Assembly (NCBI GenBank): GCA_903875465.1
Contig: CAIQWB010000062.1
Location: 1 to 64,000, forward strand
DNA from: an uncultured Verrucomicrobia subdivision 3 bacterium
GTDB lineage: Bacteria; Verrucomicrobiota; Verrucomicrobiia; Limisphaerales; UBA11358
Length of the DNA: 64,000 nucleotides
Direction of reading: 5' to 3'
In this document: one piece after another, positions 39,130-54,234 of the stretch
How the letters are laid out: each line of letters starts with the position of its first letter
Numbering within the stretch: position 1 is the first letter of the stretch
Translations under genes and position numbers: made by a program
Notes under the pieces: generated by a model
Seen by the model: the letters and a program-made list of their open reading frames with translations, nothing else
Told to the model about the DNA's origin: nothing
Database searches by the model: none

Positions 39130-40845
39130 ATGTCGCACACCATGAAACGTTCCCATTATGCCAATATGTTTGGCCCCACCACCGGGGACAAAGTCCGGCT
39201 TGGCGACACGTCGCTCATTTTAGAGGTCGAACGCGATTACACGGTTTATGGTGACGAATGCAAATTTGGCGGCGGCAAAGTCATCCGCGAAGGCATGGGG
39301 CAGGCCGCCGGCATTGGGGACGCCGACGCGCTGGATTGCGTCATCACCAATGCGCTGGTCATGGACTACACCGGCATTTACAAGGCTGACCTCGGCATTA
39401 AAAACGGGCTCATCTCCGGTATCGGGAAAGCCGGTAATCCCGACGTCATGGCTGGTGTGGCCAAGAACTTGATCATCGGCGTCAATACCGAGGTCATCGC
39501 GGGCGAGGGCCTCATTGTCACTGCCGGCGGCCTCGATACGCACATCCATTTCATCTGTCCGCAGCAAGCCCACGAAGCCATCGCAGCCGGGCTTACCACC
39601 ATGGTAGGCGGTGGCACCGGGCCGGCCGTCGGTACTTGCGCCACCACCTGCACCCCGGGTTCTTTTTACCTGGAGATGATGCTAAAGGCCGTGGACCAAC
39701 TGCCGCTCAATTTTGGTTTCACCGGCAAGGGGAACACCGCCCAGCCTGCCGGCTTGCCTGAGCAAATTCTGGCGGGGGCCATTGGCCTGAAACTACATGA
39801 AGATTGGGGCACCACCCCGGCGGCCATTGACTGCTGCCTCAGCATGGCGGATAAATACGATATTCAGGTGACCATTCACACTGACACCTTGAACGAATCC
39901 GCTTTTGTGGAAGGCACCATCGCCGCGTTCAAAGGGCGCACGATTCATACTTACCATAGCGAGGGTGCCGGCGGGGGCCACGCGCCGGATATCATTCGCA
40001 TTTGCGGTGAGCCTAATGTCCTGCCCAGTTCCACCAATCCGACCAAGCCCTACACGGTCAACACCATTGATGAACATCTGGACATGCTCATGGTGTGCCA
40101 TCATCTTGACCCCAATTTGCCGGAGGATGTGGCCTTTGCCGAAAGCCGCATCCGCGGTGAAACCATCGCCGCCGAGGATATCCTGCACGACCTTGGCGCC
40201 ATCAGTATGATGAGTTCGGATTCCCAGGCCATGGGCCGGATTGGCGAGGTTATTACCCGCTCATGGCAGACGGCCGACAAAATGAAACAGCAGCGCGGCC
40301 GGCTGCCGGAAGAGCAGGGGGACAATGATAACCTCCGCATCAAACGTTATCTCTCCAAATACACCATCAACCCGGCGCTGGCGCATGGTATGGCACATAT
40401 CATTGGCTCCGTGGAAGTCGGCAAGCTCGCCGACCTGGTGCTCTGGAAGCCGGCTTTCTTTGGGGCTAAACCGGAAATGGTCATCAAAGGCGGCGTGATT
40501 GCCTGGGCCCAGATGGGTGATCCCAATGCCAGCATCCCCACGCCGCAGCCAGTCTACATGCGGCCCATGTTTGGCAGTTTTGGCCAGGCCACGGGTCCGT
40601 GTTCCATTGCCTTTGTGAGCCAGTTGTGTCAATCCAAAGGTGTCGCCAAAAAATATGGCCTCAACAAACGCATCGAAGCGGTCAAAGGCTGCCGCCAGGT
40701 GGGAAAAAAAGACCTCAAGTGGAACAATGCCATGCCCAAAATCACGGTGGACCCCGAAACTTACGAAGTCCGGGCCGATGGCGAGCTCCTCACCTGCGAA
40801 CCCGCCAAAAAACTCCCCCTGGCCCAGCGCTACTATTTATTTTGA
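39130..40845 (+). CDS. ureC: Urease alpha (catalytic) subunit
   Basis: A 571-residue alpha subunit, normal length. Nickel ligands are His138 and His140 (DTHIHF), the carbamylated Lys221 (GLKLHEDWG), His250 and His276 and Asp364 (SSDSQAMGR). The flap with its cysteine and catalytic histidine is MVCHHLDPN. All lie four residues further than in Klebsiella urease. It hydrolyses urea to ammonia and carbamate in the cytoplasm. The start at 39130 is favoured by its single-base spacing from ureAB; an ATG at 39142 ([11 protein letters not shown]) would match the family start equally well. Confidence 0.97.
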
Positions 40846-43157: not shown

Positions 43158-44624
43158 ATGAAAACAATAATAGAAAGCAATCTGGCACAACCCGAAACCA
43201 CCCTCGAAAACCGGCAAAGTGGCTCAGAAGTGGCTCAGAAAAATGTCGCTGCGCCACTTTTGAAAAGCCCACCGGAATCACGCAAAGCCAAGCGCACACT
43301 TTCCCGGACACACTCCGATTACTGGAAAGCCCGGTTGTTTCGCCGGTCCTACGATTACGATGGTCGGCAAAAAGAGGTCAACGACCTGTACGTTCGGATT
43401 CAACATGGCGGCCGCCGCGAGTTTTTTGGGCTAAACACCACCAACCAGGATAGTGCCGCCATCAAGGCCCGCGATATCTTCACCTTCCTCAAAGCCAATG
43501 GCTGGGACGCCACCCTGGCCAAGTTTAGGCCGGATGCCGATAGCCATCCTAAACTCGACGTCACCGTGGGTGATTATCTGGCCGCCGTGGACCTTACGCG
43601 TAAAATCCGCGCTCGCACCTTTGACAACTACCGCCGATGCTTCCGGACCGTCATCGCCGAATCATTTGGCATCACGCTCAAGAAAGGCGAAAGCAAATAT
43701 GATTACCGCACCGGTGGCCACACGGTTTGGGCGCAACGGATTGACGAGATCCGGCTGGAACGCGTCACCCCTGACCGGGTGAACAAATGGAAGCGCGACC
43801 GCGTGGCCATCGCCGGTCATGCCGCCGCCGCCATTGCGTCCGCCCGGCGCACCGTGAACACCTACATTCGTTGCGCCCGGTCGCTATTCAGCCCGGGCCT
43901 GCTCCGTGAGATCAAGGGATTAAAGCTCCCGGCAGTGCTGCCTTTCGCTGGTGTGGAACTGGAAGAATCCGGCTCACAGAAATACGTCAGCAAGATCGAC
44001 GCGAAAGCCCTTATTGCGGCCGCCCGAAACGATTTGCGGGAATCCGACCCGGAAGTCTACAAAGCCTTTTTACTTGGCCTGTTCGCCGGGATGCGGAAGG
44101 CGGAAATTGATTCTGCTGAATGGCGGATGTTAAATTTTAACGACCATATCCTGCGACTGGAAGAAACCGAATGGCTTCACCTCAAAACTCGCGACTCGGC
44201 TGCGGACATCACGATTGACCCGGAAGTCACCGCTGAACTCCAGGCATTGCAGCCCGCTCCGACGGGTAAACCGGAGCCTTGGTCGCAATTCATCCTTAAA
44301 AGCCCGCACGCACCCCAACCAGAGGCGCTACGGGCGTTCTACCGCTGCGAAGACACTTTCGACCGTCTCAACATCTGGCTACGGGGCAAGGGGATCAAGG
44401 CCAACAAGCCCCTCCATGAACTGCGCAAGGAAGTGGGCGCAATCATCGCCACCGAACAGGGCATCTACGCCGCCTCCAAGTTCCTGCGGCATTCGGACAT
44501 CACCACCACCGCCCGGCACTATGCCGACCAGAAGGCGCGTATTAATGTCGGCCTGGGCAAGTTTCTTGACACCACCATCAAGCCGGTTGAACCTCAGACA
44601 GTTCAGGAATCAAAAGTTGCCTGA
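43158..44624 (+). CDS. Tyrosine recombinase (integrase)
   Basis: A 488-residue site-specific recombinase. The N-terminal arm- and core-binding region covers about 50-270. The catalytic domain holds the conserved Arg in LFAGMRKAEI, the HxxR box in PLHELRKEVGA, the second His in LRHSDITTTARHY and the nucleophile tyrosine in that same motif. The N-terminal 40 residues are Ser/Gln-rich and poorly ordered. It lies next to the tRNA-Arg fragment, so it almost surely catalysed integration there. Confidence 0.9.
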   Translation: MKTIIESNLAQPETTLENRQSGSEVAQKNVAAPLLKSPPESRKAKRTLSRTHSDYWKARLFRRSYDYDGRQKEVNDLYVRIQHGGRREFFGLNTTNQDSAAIKARDIFTFLKANGWDATLAKFRPDADSHPKLDVTVGDYLAAVDLTRKIRARTFDNYRRCFRTVIAESFGITLKKGESKYDYRTGGHTVWAQRIDEIRLERVTPDRVNKWKRDRVAIAGHAAAAIASARRTVNTYIRCARSLFSPGLLREIKGLKLPAVLPFAGVELEESGSQKYVSKIDAKALIAAARNDLRESDPEVYKAFLLGLFAGMRKAEIDSAEWRMLNFNDHILRLEETEWLHLKTRDSAADITIDPEVTAELQALQPAPTGKPEPWSQFILKSPHAPQPEALRAFYRCEDTFDRLNIWLRGKGIKANKPLHELRKEVGAIIATEQGIYAASKFLRHSDITTTARHYADQKARINVGLGKFLDTTIKPVEPQTVQESKVA

Positions 44625-48377: not shown

Positions 48378-48960
48378 ATCGAAAGTGTTGCGTCATTTCG
48401 GATGGGTCGCCGCCAAGTGAAGTCCCAAGCCACCCCGGCCTTGGCCGCGTCCACATGTCTGAACTGGCTGATACCAGGATTGCCAGTGGTCCCATCCGAG
48501 GCCCTAGCGCCCGGCCACGGCCCGGCAATCGCCACCGTGGTCGCCAATGTAGCCCGTCCATCAGAACCGCCAGCGAGCACTGCTGCCGGCGCTTTTGGCA
48601 ATGCTTTTCCCGCGCCCCAACCCATCTGGAGTCCTGTTTTTCAGCCTGCTACTTTTCAGTGATGGTATTCGGATGGCCTGCCGAATCCAGACCCCTCATC
48701 TTTTTATCGAGGGGGCCATATCTCCCTGAAAGCAAACATCTTGCCATCATGCCAAGCCTCGTGGCCGATCCCAGCGCCATCCCGCGCGCCCCGGTTCATT
48801 TCCTGCATTATTGCCTGGTCCAAAATCGCTTAATCCAAAAAACCGCGCCCGGCCGCCAAAGATTGCCTTGCCGTGCCGCGTCCGCCGCTCTAAAACATCC
48901 GGGACGGAATAAAAATGATGCAGCACTGAAACAAACCAATTTTGCGTAGCTAAATACGGT
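48378..48960. other. Stretch without a supported gene, 583 bp
   Basis: Several overlapping open frames exist on both strands, but their products are Pro/Ala/Arg-rich with no recognisable domain and lack ribosome-binding sites. I see no gene to report. It precedes the folded RNA at 48961. Confidence 0.4.
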
Positions 48961-49098
48961 CTCGATAGAAAACCGCGAATTTTCACAGCAGAGAACCGTC
49001 TGGCACGCGCCCCATCGGGCGCGGCTTGACGTATTTCTCTGCCCAGGCGCTTCGCGGTGCCTCTATCGAGGGTGCGTCGAGTTCGCGCCTCTTTTATT
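48961..49098 (+). ncRNA. Candidate structured RNA with terminator
   Basis: A rod of nested perfect stems. P1 CTCGATAGA (48961) pairs with TCTATCGAG (49062); P2 ACCGCGAA (48972) with TTCGCGGT (49051); P3 GCAGAGAA (48988) with TTCTCTGC (49035); a 4-bp CGTC/GACG; and P4 CGCGCCC/GGGCGCG around loop CATC (49013-49016). P2 and P3 enclose a symmetric 8 x 8 internal loop. Downstream, GAGGGTGCG (49068) can pair with CGCGCCTC (49084), followed by TTTTATT: a terminator whose left arm shares the last three bases of P1. So it may be a separate RNA with its own end, or a leader that switches between two folds ahead of the gene at 49123. No known RNA family recognised. Confidence 0.5.
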
Positions 49099-49122
49099 CC
49101 CGGTAAGGCTCCGCCAACCCCC

Positions 49123-49602
49123 ATGCGAATGAGCCCAATTCCCAATGCAAATGAAATCGGTGCCAGCAAGCCAATCCTTTATCTTGCCATCAAGGCGGCC
49201 ATAACCGTCGCGTATTTGGCCATCCTGTGGTGGCTTTGGAAGCCGGTCGGAGCCTATGTGACAATCATGATGGTCGGCGGCTATTGCACCTGGGTCATAT
49301 CAAGTCGTTACATTTTCTGGCATCCGACCCGTACAACCATCGTCGCAGCCCTTTTTGGGACTTTCATGGCCGCACTCGTGTGCCTTTCAACCATCGTGTC
49401 CGTTAAGTCTTGGTGGGCCAAATTGCTCCTAGGCTTTTGGGGATTAATTGCAGTCGCCTACATCGGCTCGCCTTCCCATACCTCCAACTATCGCGCAACA
49501 ACCATCAGCAAAGACCAGCTCCAATACATCGCTGGCGCGGCGATTTGCACCTACCTGCTGGTTTCAGCGTGTATCTGGTTGATTCTCTGGCTTCATTCGT
49601 AA
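49123..49602 (+). CDS. Small membrane protein
   Basis: A 159-residue protein with about four transmembrane segments: LYLAIKAAITVAYLAILWWL, VGAYVTIMMVGGYCTWVI, IVAALFGTFMAALVCLSTIV and YIAGAAICTYLLVSACIWLI. Start is ambiguous between two close ATGs (49123 and 49129). No family recognised. It lies 24 bp after the putative terminator of the structured RNA, so its expression may depend on read-through. Confidence 0.6.
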   Translation: MRMSPIPNANEIGASKPILYLAIKAAITVAYLAILWWLWKPVGAYVTIMMVGGYCTWVISSRYIFWHPTRTTIVAALFGTFMAALVCLSTIVSVKSWWAKLLLGFWGLIAVAYIGSPSHTSNYRATTISKDQLQYIAGAAICTYLLVSACIWLILWLHS

Positions 49603-49615
49603 TCGGCTGCCCCCC

Positions 49616-50113
49616 ATGAGCCAATCCATCACCAGCAATGATCTGACGACCGCCTTCGTCCAGTTCGCCAGTGGCTTTGACGGCCTGCCCGCCAGAAGGC
49701 GTTACCTTGAAGCACACCCGGAATTGCTGTCCCAGCCGGCCATTGACGCCGCGAATGCCTTTATCCTCGATTGGCGCGACCGGGGATTCCCTCAGGCCAG
49801 CCTCATCAGCCTGCGCCTATTTAGGAATTTGCTCCAGCGAGCGATGGCGGTTGGCGTGGGTGCTGCCTGCCAAGAGTTTGACCCCGCACCGCCGGCGGTG
49901 GTGGATGCGGTGGCAAAATTCCTCCGGGCCGGCCCTGGTTACGATAGTTTCAGCGCGCTCATTGGCGAGCGCCCGCAGTTGACCTCACCCCATGCCAGCG
50001 GTGCCTTCAATTTCTTGCGGGCCAAGTTTGAGGATGATCCCGATCAACTACGGATCATTGAGGCCTGCTGGGATGCCATCGGCATGTTCCGGGATGGGGC
50101 AACCCCTCATTAA
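49616..50113 (+). CDS. Unknown helical protein
   Basis: A 165-residue soluble protein, predicted to be mostly helical (LPARRRYLEAHPELLSQPAI, ANAFILDWRDRGFPQASLIS). The repeated helix pairs resemble TPR-like folds found in CHAT-type and other multi-domain proteins. It follows the membrane-protein gene by 13 bp, and the two may be an operon. No function assigned. Confidence 0.55.
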   Translation: MSQSITSNDLTTAFVQFASGFDGLPARRRYLEAHPELLSQPAIDAANAFILDWRDRGFPQASLISLRLFRNLLQRAMAVGVGAACQEFDPAPPAVVDAVAKFLRAGPGYDSFSALIGERPQLTSPHASGAFNFLRAKFEDDPDQLRIIEACWDAIGMFRDGATPH

Positions 50114-50317: not shown

Positions 50318-52987
50318 ATGCCACGCCTTTCCCTTGCCAAACTTGAACGCCACCTGTATTCCGCCGCCGACCGGCTGCGCCAGGAGGGGCTCGATGCGGC
50401 CACCTACAAGGATTACATCTTCGGGATGCTCTTCCTGAAACGCTGCTCGGACGTTTTCGATGCCGAACGCGAAAAAATCGTCGCTCAGAAGACCGCCCAA
50501 GGCATGGCGTTAAACGATGCCACCAAGGAATTTGGGGAGAACTCCGATTATTACGATGGCTTTTTTGTGCCGGAACGAGCCCGGTGGAAATTCCTCCAGG
50601 ACAAGCTCGGTGATGCCGCCGAGGTTTATGGCGCGGTACTGGACAAGGCGCTCGGGGCCTTGAGCGAGGCCAATCCCGCGTTGGAACATGTCCTTGACCA
50701 TATCAGCTTCATGCGCTCCCAGGGCACGAAGCGCATTGTTTCGGACGATTGCTGCAAAGATCTGGTCCGCGACCATTTCAGCCGCTACCGGCTGCGCAAC
50801 GAGGATTTCCAGTTTTCCGACCTGCTGGGGGCGGCCTACGAATTCCTCATTAACATGTTCGCCGAGTCGGCGGGCAAAAAAGGCGGCGACTTTTACACCC
50901 CGCGCGACGTAATCCGCCTGATGGTCCGCATCCTCAAGCCCGCGCCGGGCATGAGCGTGTATGACCCCACGTGCGGTTCCGGCGGGATGCTGATCATCAG
51001 CCGGGAATACATCGAGCAATCCGGTGGGGATGTGACCAACCTTCGCTTATGCGGCCAAGTCAATGACGCTTCGGCGTGGTCCATCTGCCGGCTGAACATG
51101 CTGCTTCACGGGGTCACTGGGGCGGATATTCAATTGCAGGACACCCTGCTGCACCCGTTGCACCGGGACGGGGGCGAGTTGGAACGTTTTGACCGCGTCG
51201 TCGCCAATCCGCCGTTCAGCCAGAACTACACCCGCAGCAACATGGAGTTCCCCGAGCGGTTTCGCTGGGGCTGGTGCCCGCCCACGGGCAAAAAGGCCGA
51301 CCTCATGTTTGCCCAGCACATGCTGGCCGTCTGCAAACCCGGCGGCATGGTCGCCACCGTCATGCCTCATGGCGTGCTGTTTCGCGGCGGGGCGGAAAAG
51401 GAAATCCGCCGCAAGTTCTTGGAGCAAGACCTCATCGAGGCGGTCATCGGTCTGCCGCAAAACCTGTTCTATGGCGCGGGCATCCCAGCCTGCATCCTGG
51501 TCATGCGGCCCAATCTCACCGGCCAGGCACCGAACCCGAACAAAGCAGCCGACCGCCGGGGCCAGGTGCTCTTCATCAATGCCGATGCCGAGTTCCACGC
51601 CGGCCGGGCGCAAAACTACCTGCGCCCGGAACACGTCGAGAAGGTGGTTTCCACCTTCGAACGCTACCAGGCCATCCCCGGCTATGCCCGGATTGTCCCG
51701 CTGGCGGAAATTACCGGTGAGGCCAATGATTTCAACCTCAACATCCGGCGGTACGTGGACAATTCGCCGCCTCCGGAACCGCAGGACGTGCGCGCCCACC
51801 TCGTGGGTGGCGTGCCCGTGGCGGAAGTGGCGGACAAGCGCGCTTTGTTTGACGCGCTCGGCTTCGCCCAGTTCCATGCCTTCGCGGAGCGAAAAAGCGA
51901 TCCCAAGTATTACGACTTCGCCGCCACGCTGCCCGACCGGGCGGCCATACGTCCGCTGATCGAAAATGACGCGGGTGTGCAAGCCCGGCTTGCCATAGTG
52001 CGGGAAAGGCTGGCCACGTGGTGGTTGCAGCAATCTCCTAACCTGGCCGATTTACCGAACCGTCGCGATCTCAATCGCGTCCGAACTGAATTTTTGGATA
52101 CGTTTGTCACTGCTCTGCTTCAGGGAAATACCACCGGTGGCTCACCGGTGGTGGACCGGTTCAAACTGGCGGGCGTCATCGCCACTTGGTGGACCGAAAC
52201 GCTGCCCGACTTCAAGACCCTGCTCGAAAATGGCTTTCCTGGAGTCATTGACGGCTGGGTGGACGCCATTGCCGATGCGGTGGAGGATGACGAAGCCGCC
52301 GGACCTGTGCTCGACCCCTTCGCGCACAAACTGGTCCGCCATACCATGGCGGATTATCTGGATCGGATCACCGCCGCCAAGGCTGACATCGCCCGGCTCA
52401 AGGGCGAGAAGGAAGCCTTTGAGGGCAGCAACGCGCCCGACGACCTCGACGAGGAAGAGTTGGCGAATTGGCATTACCCCAAGGACATTGAACGGCAGAT
52501 GCGGGAACTAAAATCTGAAAACAAGGACGCGCTCAAGAGTCTGGCCAAATTGGAAAAAGCCGCCGCCAAAACCCGCGCCACTGCCTCCGAGATCCGTGCG
52601 CATGAAGAGGCAAAAGCGGAACTGCAATCCATCTTGGACGAGTTGCATAATTTGGAAGTCTCCCTGCAACCCTACGAACGGATTAAGGAACACCTCGCCG
52701 AAGCTCGCGCCCGTTTTCGCAATCTGACCGATGAGTTCGTGAACGAACTCGAATCTCGTTGTGACAAGATGAATGGCGACCAGAAGCGCGCCCTCGTTCT
52801 CGAACTGTTCGCGCAGGACGTGCAGGCCGGCCTCGAAAAGGCCGTGGCCGAGAAGCGGCAGGAACTGGTGCGTTTCATCGAAGGTCTGTGGGACAAATAC
52901 CACGTCACGTTGACTGTCCTGCGCGGAGAACGCGCCACCGTTGAAAAACAGTTGGAGAAATTCTTTGAAGCGTTGACTTACCAATGA
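50318..52987 (+). CDS. hsdM: Type I restriction-modification methyltransferase subunit
   Basis: An 889-residue HsdM. The N-terminal HsdM_N helical bundle spans about 1-145 (LSLAKLERHLYSAADRLRQE, YIFGMLFLKRCSDVFDAERE). The N6-adenine methyltransferase domain has motif I DPTCGSGGML near 216 and catalytic motif IV NPPF near 297. Beyond residue 520 lies a long extension with coiled-coil character (about 660-850), which makes it far longer than E. coli HsdM (529); long HsdM forms are known. It methylates the host recognition site as part of HsdM2S and HsdR2M2S. Its stop overlaps hsdS as ATGA. Confidence 0.95.
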   Translation: MPRLSLAKLERHLYSAADRLRQEGLDAATYKDYIFGMLFLKRCSDVFDAEREKIVAQKTAQGMALNDATKEFGENSDYYDGFFVPERARWKFLQDKLGDAAEVYGAVLDKALGALSEANPALEHVLDHISFMRSQGTKRIVSDDCCKDLVRDHFSRYRLRNEDFQFSDLLGAAYEFLINMFAESAGKKGGDFYTPRDVIRLMVRILKPAPGMSVYDPTCGSGGMLIISREYIEQSGGDVTNLRLCGQVNDASAWSICRLNMLLHGVTGADIQLQDTLLHPLHRDGGELERFDRVVANPPFSQNYTRSNMEFPERFRWGWCPPTGKKADLMFAQHMLAVCKPGGMVATVMPHGVLFRGGAEKEIRRKFLEQDLIEAVIGLPQNLFYGAGIPACILVMRPNLTGQAPNPNKAADRRGQVLFINADAEFHAGRAQNYLRPEHVEKVVSTFERYQAIPGYARIVPLAEITGEANDFNLNIRRYVDNSPPPEPQDVRAHLVGGVPVAEVADKRALFDALGFAQFHAFAERKSDPKYYDFAATLPDRAAIRPLIENDAGVQARLAIVRERLATWWLQQSPNLADLPNRRDLNRVRTEFLDTFVTALLQGNTTGGSPVVDRFKLAGVIATWWTETLPDFKTLLENGFPGVIDGWVDAIADAVEDDEAAGPVLDPFAHKLVRHTMADYLDRITAAKADIARLKGEKEAFEGSNAPDDLDEEELANWHYPKDIERQMRELKSENKDALKSLAKLEKAAAKTRATASEIRAHEEAKAELQSILDELHNLEVSLQPYERIKEHLAEARARFRNLTDEFVNELESRCDKMNGDQKRALVLELFAQDVQAGLEKAVAEKRQELVRFIEGLWDKYHVTLTVLRGERATVEKQLEKFFEALTYQ

Positions 52988-54234
52988 ACGAGGGACTTTC
53001 AACTGTCGGTCTTGACGAACTGGTTGAGTTGCGACCGGAAAAAGTTGCAACCAACAAAGACCCCAATCTTCCCTACATCGGTCTTGAACATATTGCGCAA
53101 GGCCAACCCCACTTGTTGGGATCTTTGCCCAGCAGTGCTTCGGTAAGCATCAACTGCTACTTTTCCAAAGACGACATTTTGTTCGGCAAGCTTCGCCCAA
53201 ATCTTCGAAAGAGCCTGAAAGCACCCTTCGCTGGTTACTGTTCAACGGACATAATTGTGCTCCGTGCTCGCGACGGTGTGCTTCCAAGTTATGCCGCGCA
53301 CGTTTTTCAATGGGAGCGAGTCTTTGCAGCCGCTTCGGCTACTGCGGTTGGGACGAAAATGCCCCGCACATCTTGGAACGAACTAAGGCGTTATCGGGTT
53401 TTCAAAACTGATTCGGATATCGAACAATCCAGCATCGCGGCGGTGCTGGATACGGTGGACGAGGCCATAGCGAAGACGGAGGCGGTGATCGCGAAACTGC
53501 GACAGGTGCGCGCCGGCCTGCTCCACGACCTCCTCACCCGCGGCCTTGACCGCCATGGCCAACTCCGCGACCCCATCGCCTACCCCGAACAATTCCGAGA
53601 CTCACCTCTCGGCCGTATACCTCGCGAGTGGCGGCCGATGAAATTTGCGGACGCATGCACCAAGGTCGGCGTCGGGATCGCGACATCAACGACCAGCCAT
53701 TTTGTCACGAAAGGAGTTCCGATGTTGAGGAATCAAAACATCACGGAACGTGGCATTTCTCTCGACGACCTCGTCCACATTTCCGAGGCCTTCGCAGAAG
53801 TGAATCGAACAAAAAGCCTTGAGCGCGGAGATATTGTCACGGTGCGAACAGGCTACCCCGGCCTTAGCGCTGTCGTGACAGAAAGGGAGGAAGGCTGGCA
53901 AACATTCACGACGCTCATAAGCCGCCCCAGATTTGACCTTTTCGATTCGGAGTTTCTTGTTCTGCAATTGAACTCAGTGATGTGCAAACGCCAGATTGCC
54001 TGTCTCCAAGCGGGCGGAGCGCAACAGAACCTAAACTCTCAAGTCCTGGAGACTCTTGATGTGCTGTGGATGCCTAAACCTGAGCAGGAACAGGTTCGTG
54101 CACACGTGAATGCCAGCGAGGGAGACTTGCGTTCGGAGGAGAGTGTTCTCGCCAAACAAGTTCTTTTGAAATCCGGCCTGATGGCCGACCTGCTCACCGG
54201 ACGCGTCCGCGTCAAAGTTGGAGGCGCTGCGTGA
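52984..54234 (+). CDS. hsdS: Type I restriction-modification specificity subunit
   Basis: A 416-residue HsdS with two target-recognition domains: about 1-175 (PYIGLEHIAQGQPHLLGSLP, FGKLRPNLRK) and about 210-400 (PMLRNQNITERGISLDDLV, RTGYPGLSAVV). Conserved helices separate and follow them (AVLDTVDEAIAKTEAVIAKL and VNASEGDLRSEESVLAKQV). Each TRD reads half of a bipartite DNA site. The base composition falls here compared with hsdM, which is common because specificity genes are exchanged. It overlaps the next gene as GTGA. Confidence 0.93.
   Translation: MNEGLSTVGLDELVELRPEKVATNKDPNLPYIGLEHIAQGQPHLLGSLPSSASVSINCYFSKDDILFGKLRPNLRKSLKAPFAGYCSTDIIVLRARDGVLPSYAAHVFQWERVFAAASATAVGTKMPRTSWNELRRYRVFKTDSDIEQSSIAAVLDTVDEAIAKTEAVIAKLRQVRAGLLHDLLTRGLDRHGQLRDPIAYPEQFRDSPLGRIPREWRPMKFADACTKVGVGIATSTTSHFVTKGVPMLRNQNITERGISLDDLVHISEAFAEVNRTKSLERGDIVTVRTGYPGLSAVVTEREEGWQTFTTLISRPRFDLFDSEFLVLQLNSVMCKRQIACLQAGGAQQNLNSQVLETLDVLWMPKPEQEQVRAHVNASEGDLRSEESVLAKQVLLKSGLMADLLTGRVRVKVGGAA

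Follow-up and report, generated by a model that had tools for sequence, protein, structure and literature searches.

The stretch of DNA analysed here (the window; 64,000 nucleotides) encodes between positions 43158 and 48377, all in one direction, a tyrosine integrase, a small HTH protein, a DnaD-like/HTH_36 protein and an IstB/DnaC-like ATPase, which together resemble a module serving integration and replication of an integrative element with type I restriction-modification genes as cargo. On the forward strand further downstream lie a gene for a small membrane protein of 159 aa (49123-49602), an orphan without a relative in 59 genomes and without a Pfam match, and a gene for a 165-aa protein (49616-50113), likewise without a Pfam match. 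These are followed by hsdM, encoding a type I restriction-modification DNA methyltransferase (50318-52987; Pfam N6_Mtase, 3.7e-94; HsdM_N, 4.9e-23), and by a gene for an HsdS-like specificity subunit (52984-54234; Methylase_S, E 4e-4, just under the curated cut-off). Elsewhere in the window, positions 39282-39577 on the reverse strand match the Rfam family RF02514 (5_ureB_sRNA; 118.8 bits, E 1e-30). This family has been described in Helicobacter, and the match is probably due to conservation of ureB as a coding region and not to a genuine sRNA.

The region preceding the membrane-protein gene folds into an unusually stable structure. For positions 48930-49122 of the forward strand, the minimum free energy was -85.1 kcal/mol, compared with -57.7 ± 4.3 kcal/mol in 200 dinucleotide shuffles (z = -6.4; 0/200 as low), which bears out the claim of an earlier note that the order here exceeds chance. 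The same fold contains all five nested stems of 9, 8, 8, 4 and 7 bp described in that note, as well as the 8 x 8 internal loop (48980-48987 x 49043-49050). We refer to this structure as fold A. Its rod (48961-49070) consists of the helices P1 (9 bp; 48961-48969/49062-49070), P2 (8 bp; 48972-48979/49051-49058), P3 (8 bp; 48988-48995/49035-49042), P3b (4 bp; 48997-49000/49028-49031) and P4 (49002-49012/49017-49026, including the 7-bp stem 49006-49012/49017-49023). An intrinsic terminator follows at 49070-49098, with a stem (49071-49076/49084-49089), a loop (49077-49083), a U-rich tail to 49098 and a possible outer pair 49070/49090. The proposed sharing of bases between the terminator and the outermost stem holds for G49070, which closes P1 and can also pair in the terminator (column 165 of the family alignment A1). 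Two features go beyond the earlier description, namely a second, mutually exclusive fold and a small hairpin 5' of the rod. This hairpin, H1 (48945-48958; consensus GCGUAGC-UUCG-GCUACG), exists in fold A only and is represented in the window by the pairs 48945-48948/48955-48958. The reverse strand of the element folds well too, but the antisense reading was rejected because the forward strand is favoured by promoter, terminator and gene direction alike.

To place the element in a family, we collected about 150 homologues in Verrucomicrobiota, with 1-8 copies per genome. BLASTN with the element found matches in 51 of 97 relatives and a second copy with 79% identity in the same genome. An exact pattern search of a species-genome collection returned 75 loci, mostly in records named Verrucomicrobia subdivision 3 or Limisphaerales; single matches in records named Planctomycetota, Acidobacteriia, Bacteroidia and Akkermansia all come from metagenome assemblies, which may be mis-named or mis-binned. 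The first covariance model, R1, rested on the alternative fold, whose role as an antiterminator was recognised only afterwards. The later model, R2, matched 35 of 59 relatives (1-8 matches per genome), and a covariance search across the phylum found matches in 52 of 240 sampled genomes. In the best distant matches the layout is unchanged, and many conserved letters recur (UUUGCG, GAAAACCGC, GCUUCGCGGU and the terminator). In one genome (G213), two weak model matches with equal scores and opposite orientations (C1:382417-382635 and C1:2504523-2504741) may represent an unrelated repeated hairpin. In one subfamily (L200 3044-3199, L201 3000-3158 and L202 3041-3198), the flanks GGACUCGAA ... GGUUCGAGUCC, followed by GGGCAAAA, have complementary potential and resemble a tRNA T arm, so that the entire element and its terminator could be closed off by an additional stem.

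No Rfam family overlapped the element at the gathering threshold in a scan of the whole window, nor under permissive settings in the local region. The known riboswitch families of Rfam 15 gave no match up to E 5 at 48800-49200, and nothing was found over the element in 11 further loci. BLASTN against INPHARED phage and PLSDB plasmid records yielded no match to the element, and a literature search whose coverage mostly excludes subscription papers did not find it described, so its novelty rests mainly on Rfam 15. We conclude that the element belongs to a new orphan-riboswitch-like family absent from Rfam, with switching as its inferred function.

Fold A is well supported by covariation. Across 82 aligned sequences, standard pairs occupied 91.8% of cells in the rod, H1 and terminator combined, 97.2% in the terminator stem and 92.9% in the six pairs of H1. 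Both sides had changed at 25 of the 48 pairs, and cells with double changes numbered 382 (136 expected from shuffles), while sliding one strand destroyed the pairing. At each of at least four positions in P1, all four Watson-Crick pairs were seen. The compensatory changes that the earlier note had proposed to look for in related elements are thus strong, and this variety of pairs at the same P1 positions argues against uncompensated decay of the stems.

The RNAalifold consensus of the family alignment chose a structure other than the rod. In this fold B, an antiterminator helix (AT; 49017-49036 with 49070-49090) joins the 3' strands of P4 and P3 to the entire terminator, including its loop as well as its two arms. 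Its 18 pairs were formed in 97.7% of cells (82 sequences), compared with 39-54% in slid controls, and the letters of the terminator loop, which have no partner in fold A, vary almost only in ways that preserve AT. When AT was enforced, the 5' half formed up to three helices in the sequences inspected. In the window, this domain Q (48943-49009) comprises Q1 (48943-48947/49005-49009 and 48949-48952/49001-49004), Q2 (48956-48963/48991-48999) and the hairpin Q3 (48968-48972/48980-48984; loop CCGCGAA). Q2 is kept with unrelated letters in divergent subfamilies (GGUCUC/GAGACC, GGGCU/AGCCC, CUGUCC/GGACAG, GCAUGAUGA/UCAUCAUGC and GGAUUUGG/CCAAAUCC), its strand being the P3 strand in a first class and an insert after UUUUC in a second. 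A further hairpin of fold B, AH (49045-49062; AGGCGCU-UCGC-GGUGCCU), lies inside the antiterminator. Part of it falls on letters that are unpaired in fold A, and these show compensatory changes in several lineages, with GGC/GCC replaced by GGG/CCC (L054, L091, L215, L216 and L219), GGU/ACC (L213) or AGG/CCU (L214). The AH loop is complementary to the Q3 loop, and a kissing pair between them in fold B is possible; in fold A these letters make up P2 instead. The loops CCGCGAA/UUCGCGG are common to most copies of the main subfamily, and their letters differ between subfamilies.

To separate co-evolution from composition, we exchanged strands between sequences with less than 60% identity in a chimera test on 121 sequences. 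The native combination was more stable than the chimera for Q2 (-13.9 vs -9.3 kcal/mol, with 86% of chimeras worse) and for the antiterminator (-35.9 vs -29.1 kcal/mol), while two control pairings showed little difference (48% and 55% of chimeras worse). Native strands thus won 86-87% of comparisons for Q2 and the antiterminator, an agreement to which shared ancestry, limited and still not removed by this test, could contribute in part. In an earlier test confined to the main subfamily the trend was the same, but the differences were smaller, and least marked for Q1 and Q2. Both folds recur with different letters in divergent relatives, and in two of them (L173 and L089) fold B is the minimum-energy fold. 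Taken together, covariation and these statistics show that two complete, mutually exclusive folds are conserved.

Of 79 nascent prefixes reaching up to the 5' arm of P4, 74 had Q2 in the predicted minimum-energy fold, 73 had Q1 and 62 had Q3. At full length, equilibrium favours fold A by about 20 kcal/mol (mean -84.3 vs -64.5), and fold B therefore needs folding kinetics or a bound partner.

The position of the element is that of a 5' leader, judged by its co-directional gene and the promoter-like sequence upstream. In the window, a consensus match to a promoter (48868-48896, forward strand) combines a -35-like TTGCCG (48868-48873), a 17-nt spacer and a -10-like TAAAAC (48891-48896), from which a transcript start near 48903 is predicted. 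A TTG plus a TA-like hexamer at 16-18 nt spacing occurred upstream in 56 of 114 loci (17% of shuffles), and the TTG columns were 93-96% conserved in a 69-locus alignment. According to a simple gene caller, the next gene is co-directional in 71 of 90 loci. Start codons cluster about 20-60 nt 3' of the element and terminator (the gene at 49123 starts 22 nt after the scored element), although for some copies no gene is present at this spacing. Of 97 loci, 84 have an ORF of 100 aa or longer whose start lies no more than 150 nt downstream; on the upstream side the count is 28 of 94. We presume that the window copy heads an operon from 49123 to the type I hsdM/hsdS genes, into which transcription would probably read through; a further promoter could be accommodated in the 204 nt preceding hsdM.

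The target genes are diverse. Among the first downstream proteins (n = 114), Pfam identified N6_N4_Mtase (9), MmeI (3), N6_Mtase (3) and EcoRI_methylase (2), so that DNA methyltransferases, of every restriction-modification type, make up about 17 of 114 first genes if none is double-counted; PADLOC agreed on the type II/III methyltransferases. Many other first genes encode Ig-like, NHL, lectin, RCC1 or other extracellular domains, and a hydropathy rule predicted an N-terminal signal peptide or membrane segment in 70 of 131 downstream proteins. The membrane protein at 49123 is not a typical target, the usual target of the family being something else. One divergent subgroup (L105, L143 and L157) precedes related proteins, of which that of L143 matches Pfam Formyl_trans_N. 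The nearest upstream proteins (n = 94) show no such bias, with one Eco57I match among otherwise scattered families. A search for conserved neighbours, such as a retron-like reverse transcriptase or a shared protein partner, found none, the largest protein clusters lying at varying positions. Since the downstream genes have no obvious common pathway, they suggest no ligand.

Copies also occur on viral contigs alongside genes for terminase, head protease or Mu-type transposase. There (L167, L168/L170, L169 and L171), the element is often flanked by a divergent gene 60-100 nt on its upstream side and, downstream, by a very short ORF, an arrangement resembling an early control region. No phage repressor was recognised next to the element on these contigs, the neighbours lacking an informative PHROGs match.

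In light of the two conserved folds, the position and the targets, the best explanation is that the element is a cis-acting transcription-attenuation leader of the transcript reading into the gene at 49123, to which we assign a probability of roughly 80%. It has the features of an attenuator, being the 5' leader of a co-directional gene with an intrinsic terminator and a conserved, mutually exclusive antiterminator, and it is apparently an uncatalogued RNA switch, found throughout the phylum, that folds to stop or pass transcription. Of the two functions suggested earlier, a switch for the gene at 49123 is thus supported by co-directional genes at near-constant distance and by conservation of both terminator and antiterminator. 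The other, a 6S-like small RNA, is not borne out. A stand-alone RNA of 6S-like or base-pairing type, whose terminator simply marks its own 3' end, would fit the promoter-like sequence, the rod shape and the predicted transcript of about 195 nt, and a terminated leader would likewise accumulate as a short RNA. Such an RNA would, however, have no use for a conserved antiterminator, nor does it explain why co-directional genes follow at near-constant distance, while the flanking genes are not conserved and copies are dispersed at 1-8 per genome. Moreover, another contig of the genome carries a distinct 6S RNA scoring above the Rfam cut-off (C33:45834-46013), the 6S model has no match at 48800-49200, and all 13 genomes searched with it contain a 6S match. 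We therefore consider a stand-alone RNA quite improbable. A base-pairing role in trans, in which the Q3/AH loops would let the terminated leader of one copy, or of a copy on a phage, bind nascent leaders of other copies, is improbable as well. The complementary loops in most main-subfamily copies and the presence of copies on phages with terminase or Mu-type transposase genes would suit it, but the loop letters vary between subfamilies and their conservation is equally explained by P2 in cis.

Two further readings were considered. That the hairpin is mobile DNA (MITE-like, attC-like or REP-like), selected as DNA with its stems giving the covariation, would account for its dispersal in unrelated neighbourhoods, often with restriction-modification genes, and for the integrase near the window copy. 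A DNA element would not be expected to have two exclusive RNA folds, a U-tract terminator, promoter-like sequences and a strand-specific site ahead of start codons, and we deem this reading very improbable. Ribosome-mediated attenuation of the trp type, with translation of a leader peptide instead of a ligand choosing the fold, follows the same terminator/antiterminator logic. Yet a short ORF accompanied by a Shine-Dalgarno-like sequence was found in the 5' part of just 10 of 88 elements, and these ORFs share no common start, frame or codons. As no conserved leader peptide emerged, this reading is the most doubtful of those considered.

Under cis-acting attenuation, the OFF state would be fold A, with H1, the rod P1-P4 and the terminator just ahead of the start codon, and the ON state fold B, with the Q1-Q2-Q3 domain, AH and the antiterminator occupying the whole terminator. 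Domain Q would form first during transcription. A signal (a small molecule, protein or RNA) that stabilised it would keep the 5' strands of P3 and P4 occupied, and their 3' strands could then pair with the terminator and let transcription continue. Without such stabilisation, the strands would zip into the more stable rod, the terminator would form and the transcript would end at about 195 nt. Both the ligand or protein holding Q and the fold that the signal favours are what we infer. Because Q is present in the nascent fold and the rod lies about 20 kcal/mol lower once complete, the decision would depend on Q being held long enough. Since the Q3 and AH loops could touch in fold B and become P2 in fold A, they are a natural starting point for the change. 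As both folds are defined pair by pair, the model is directly testable.

A bistable leader RNA of Verrucomicrobiota that is absent from Rfam would be among the few RNA switches tied to restriction-modification genes, whose regulation is usually ascribed to proteins, and it bears on the timing of newly acquired methyltransferases and restriction enzymes. That DNA-modification, surface-protein and phage genes all use it suggests a shared signal, which would be new for the phylum. Tentatively, and with the odds against it, the switch may read one general signal across the phylum, such as a second messenger or infection/stress, and gate restriction-modification, surface and phage genes with the same RNA. 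Host and phage would then read the same cue.

Several known systems resemble parts of this element. TRAP/trp, ANTAR/eut and the phage P4 CI RNA rely on exclusive antiterminator and terminator structures or on an RNA that forces termination in the leader, and pairing in trans would be like that of the P4 CI RNA of phage immunity. Unlike these systems, our element has no adjoining regulator gene, its antiterminator covers the terminator arms together with the loop, and the structures differ. With 6S RNA (RF00013) it shares the long rod with a symmetric internal bubble and a similar length, but it differs in its cis position, its alternative fold and its lack of an Rfam match. In the HMP-PP (thiS) riboswitch, a terminator-embedded aptamer, the sensor domain overlaps the terminator switch (PMC6478431); the same overlap is seen here in a longer element that has other targets and no Rfam match. 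A further parallel is offered by orphan riboswitch candidates with diverse targets, as ykkC and yybP-ykoY were before their ligands were discovered (PMC7266159). In contrast to these, our element lacks an Rfam match, targets mainly DNA methyltransferases and secreted proteins, and has a switching domain in which pairing, more than an extended invariant core, is the defining feature. What it shares with them is a 5' leader position in many species, conserved alternative folds, a terminator just before the gene and an eclectic set of targets.
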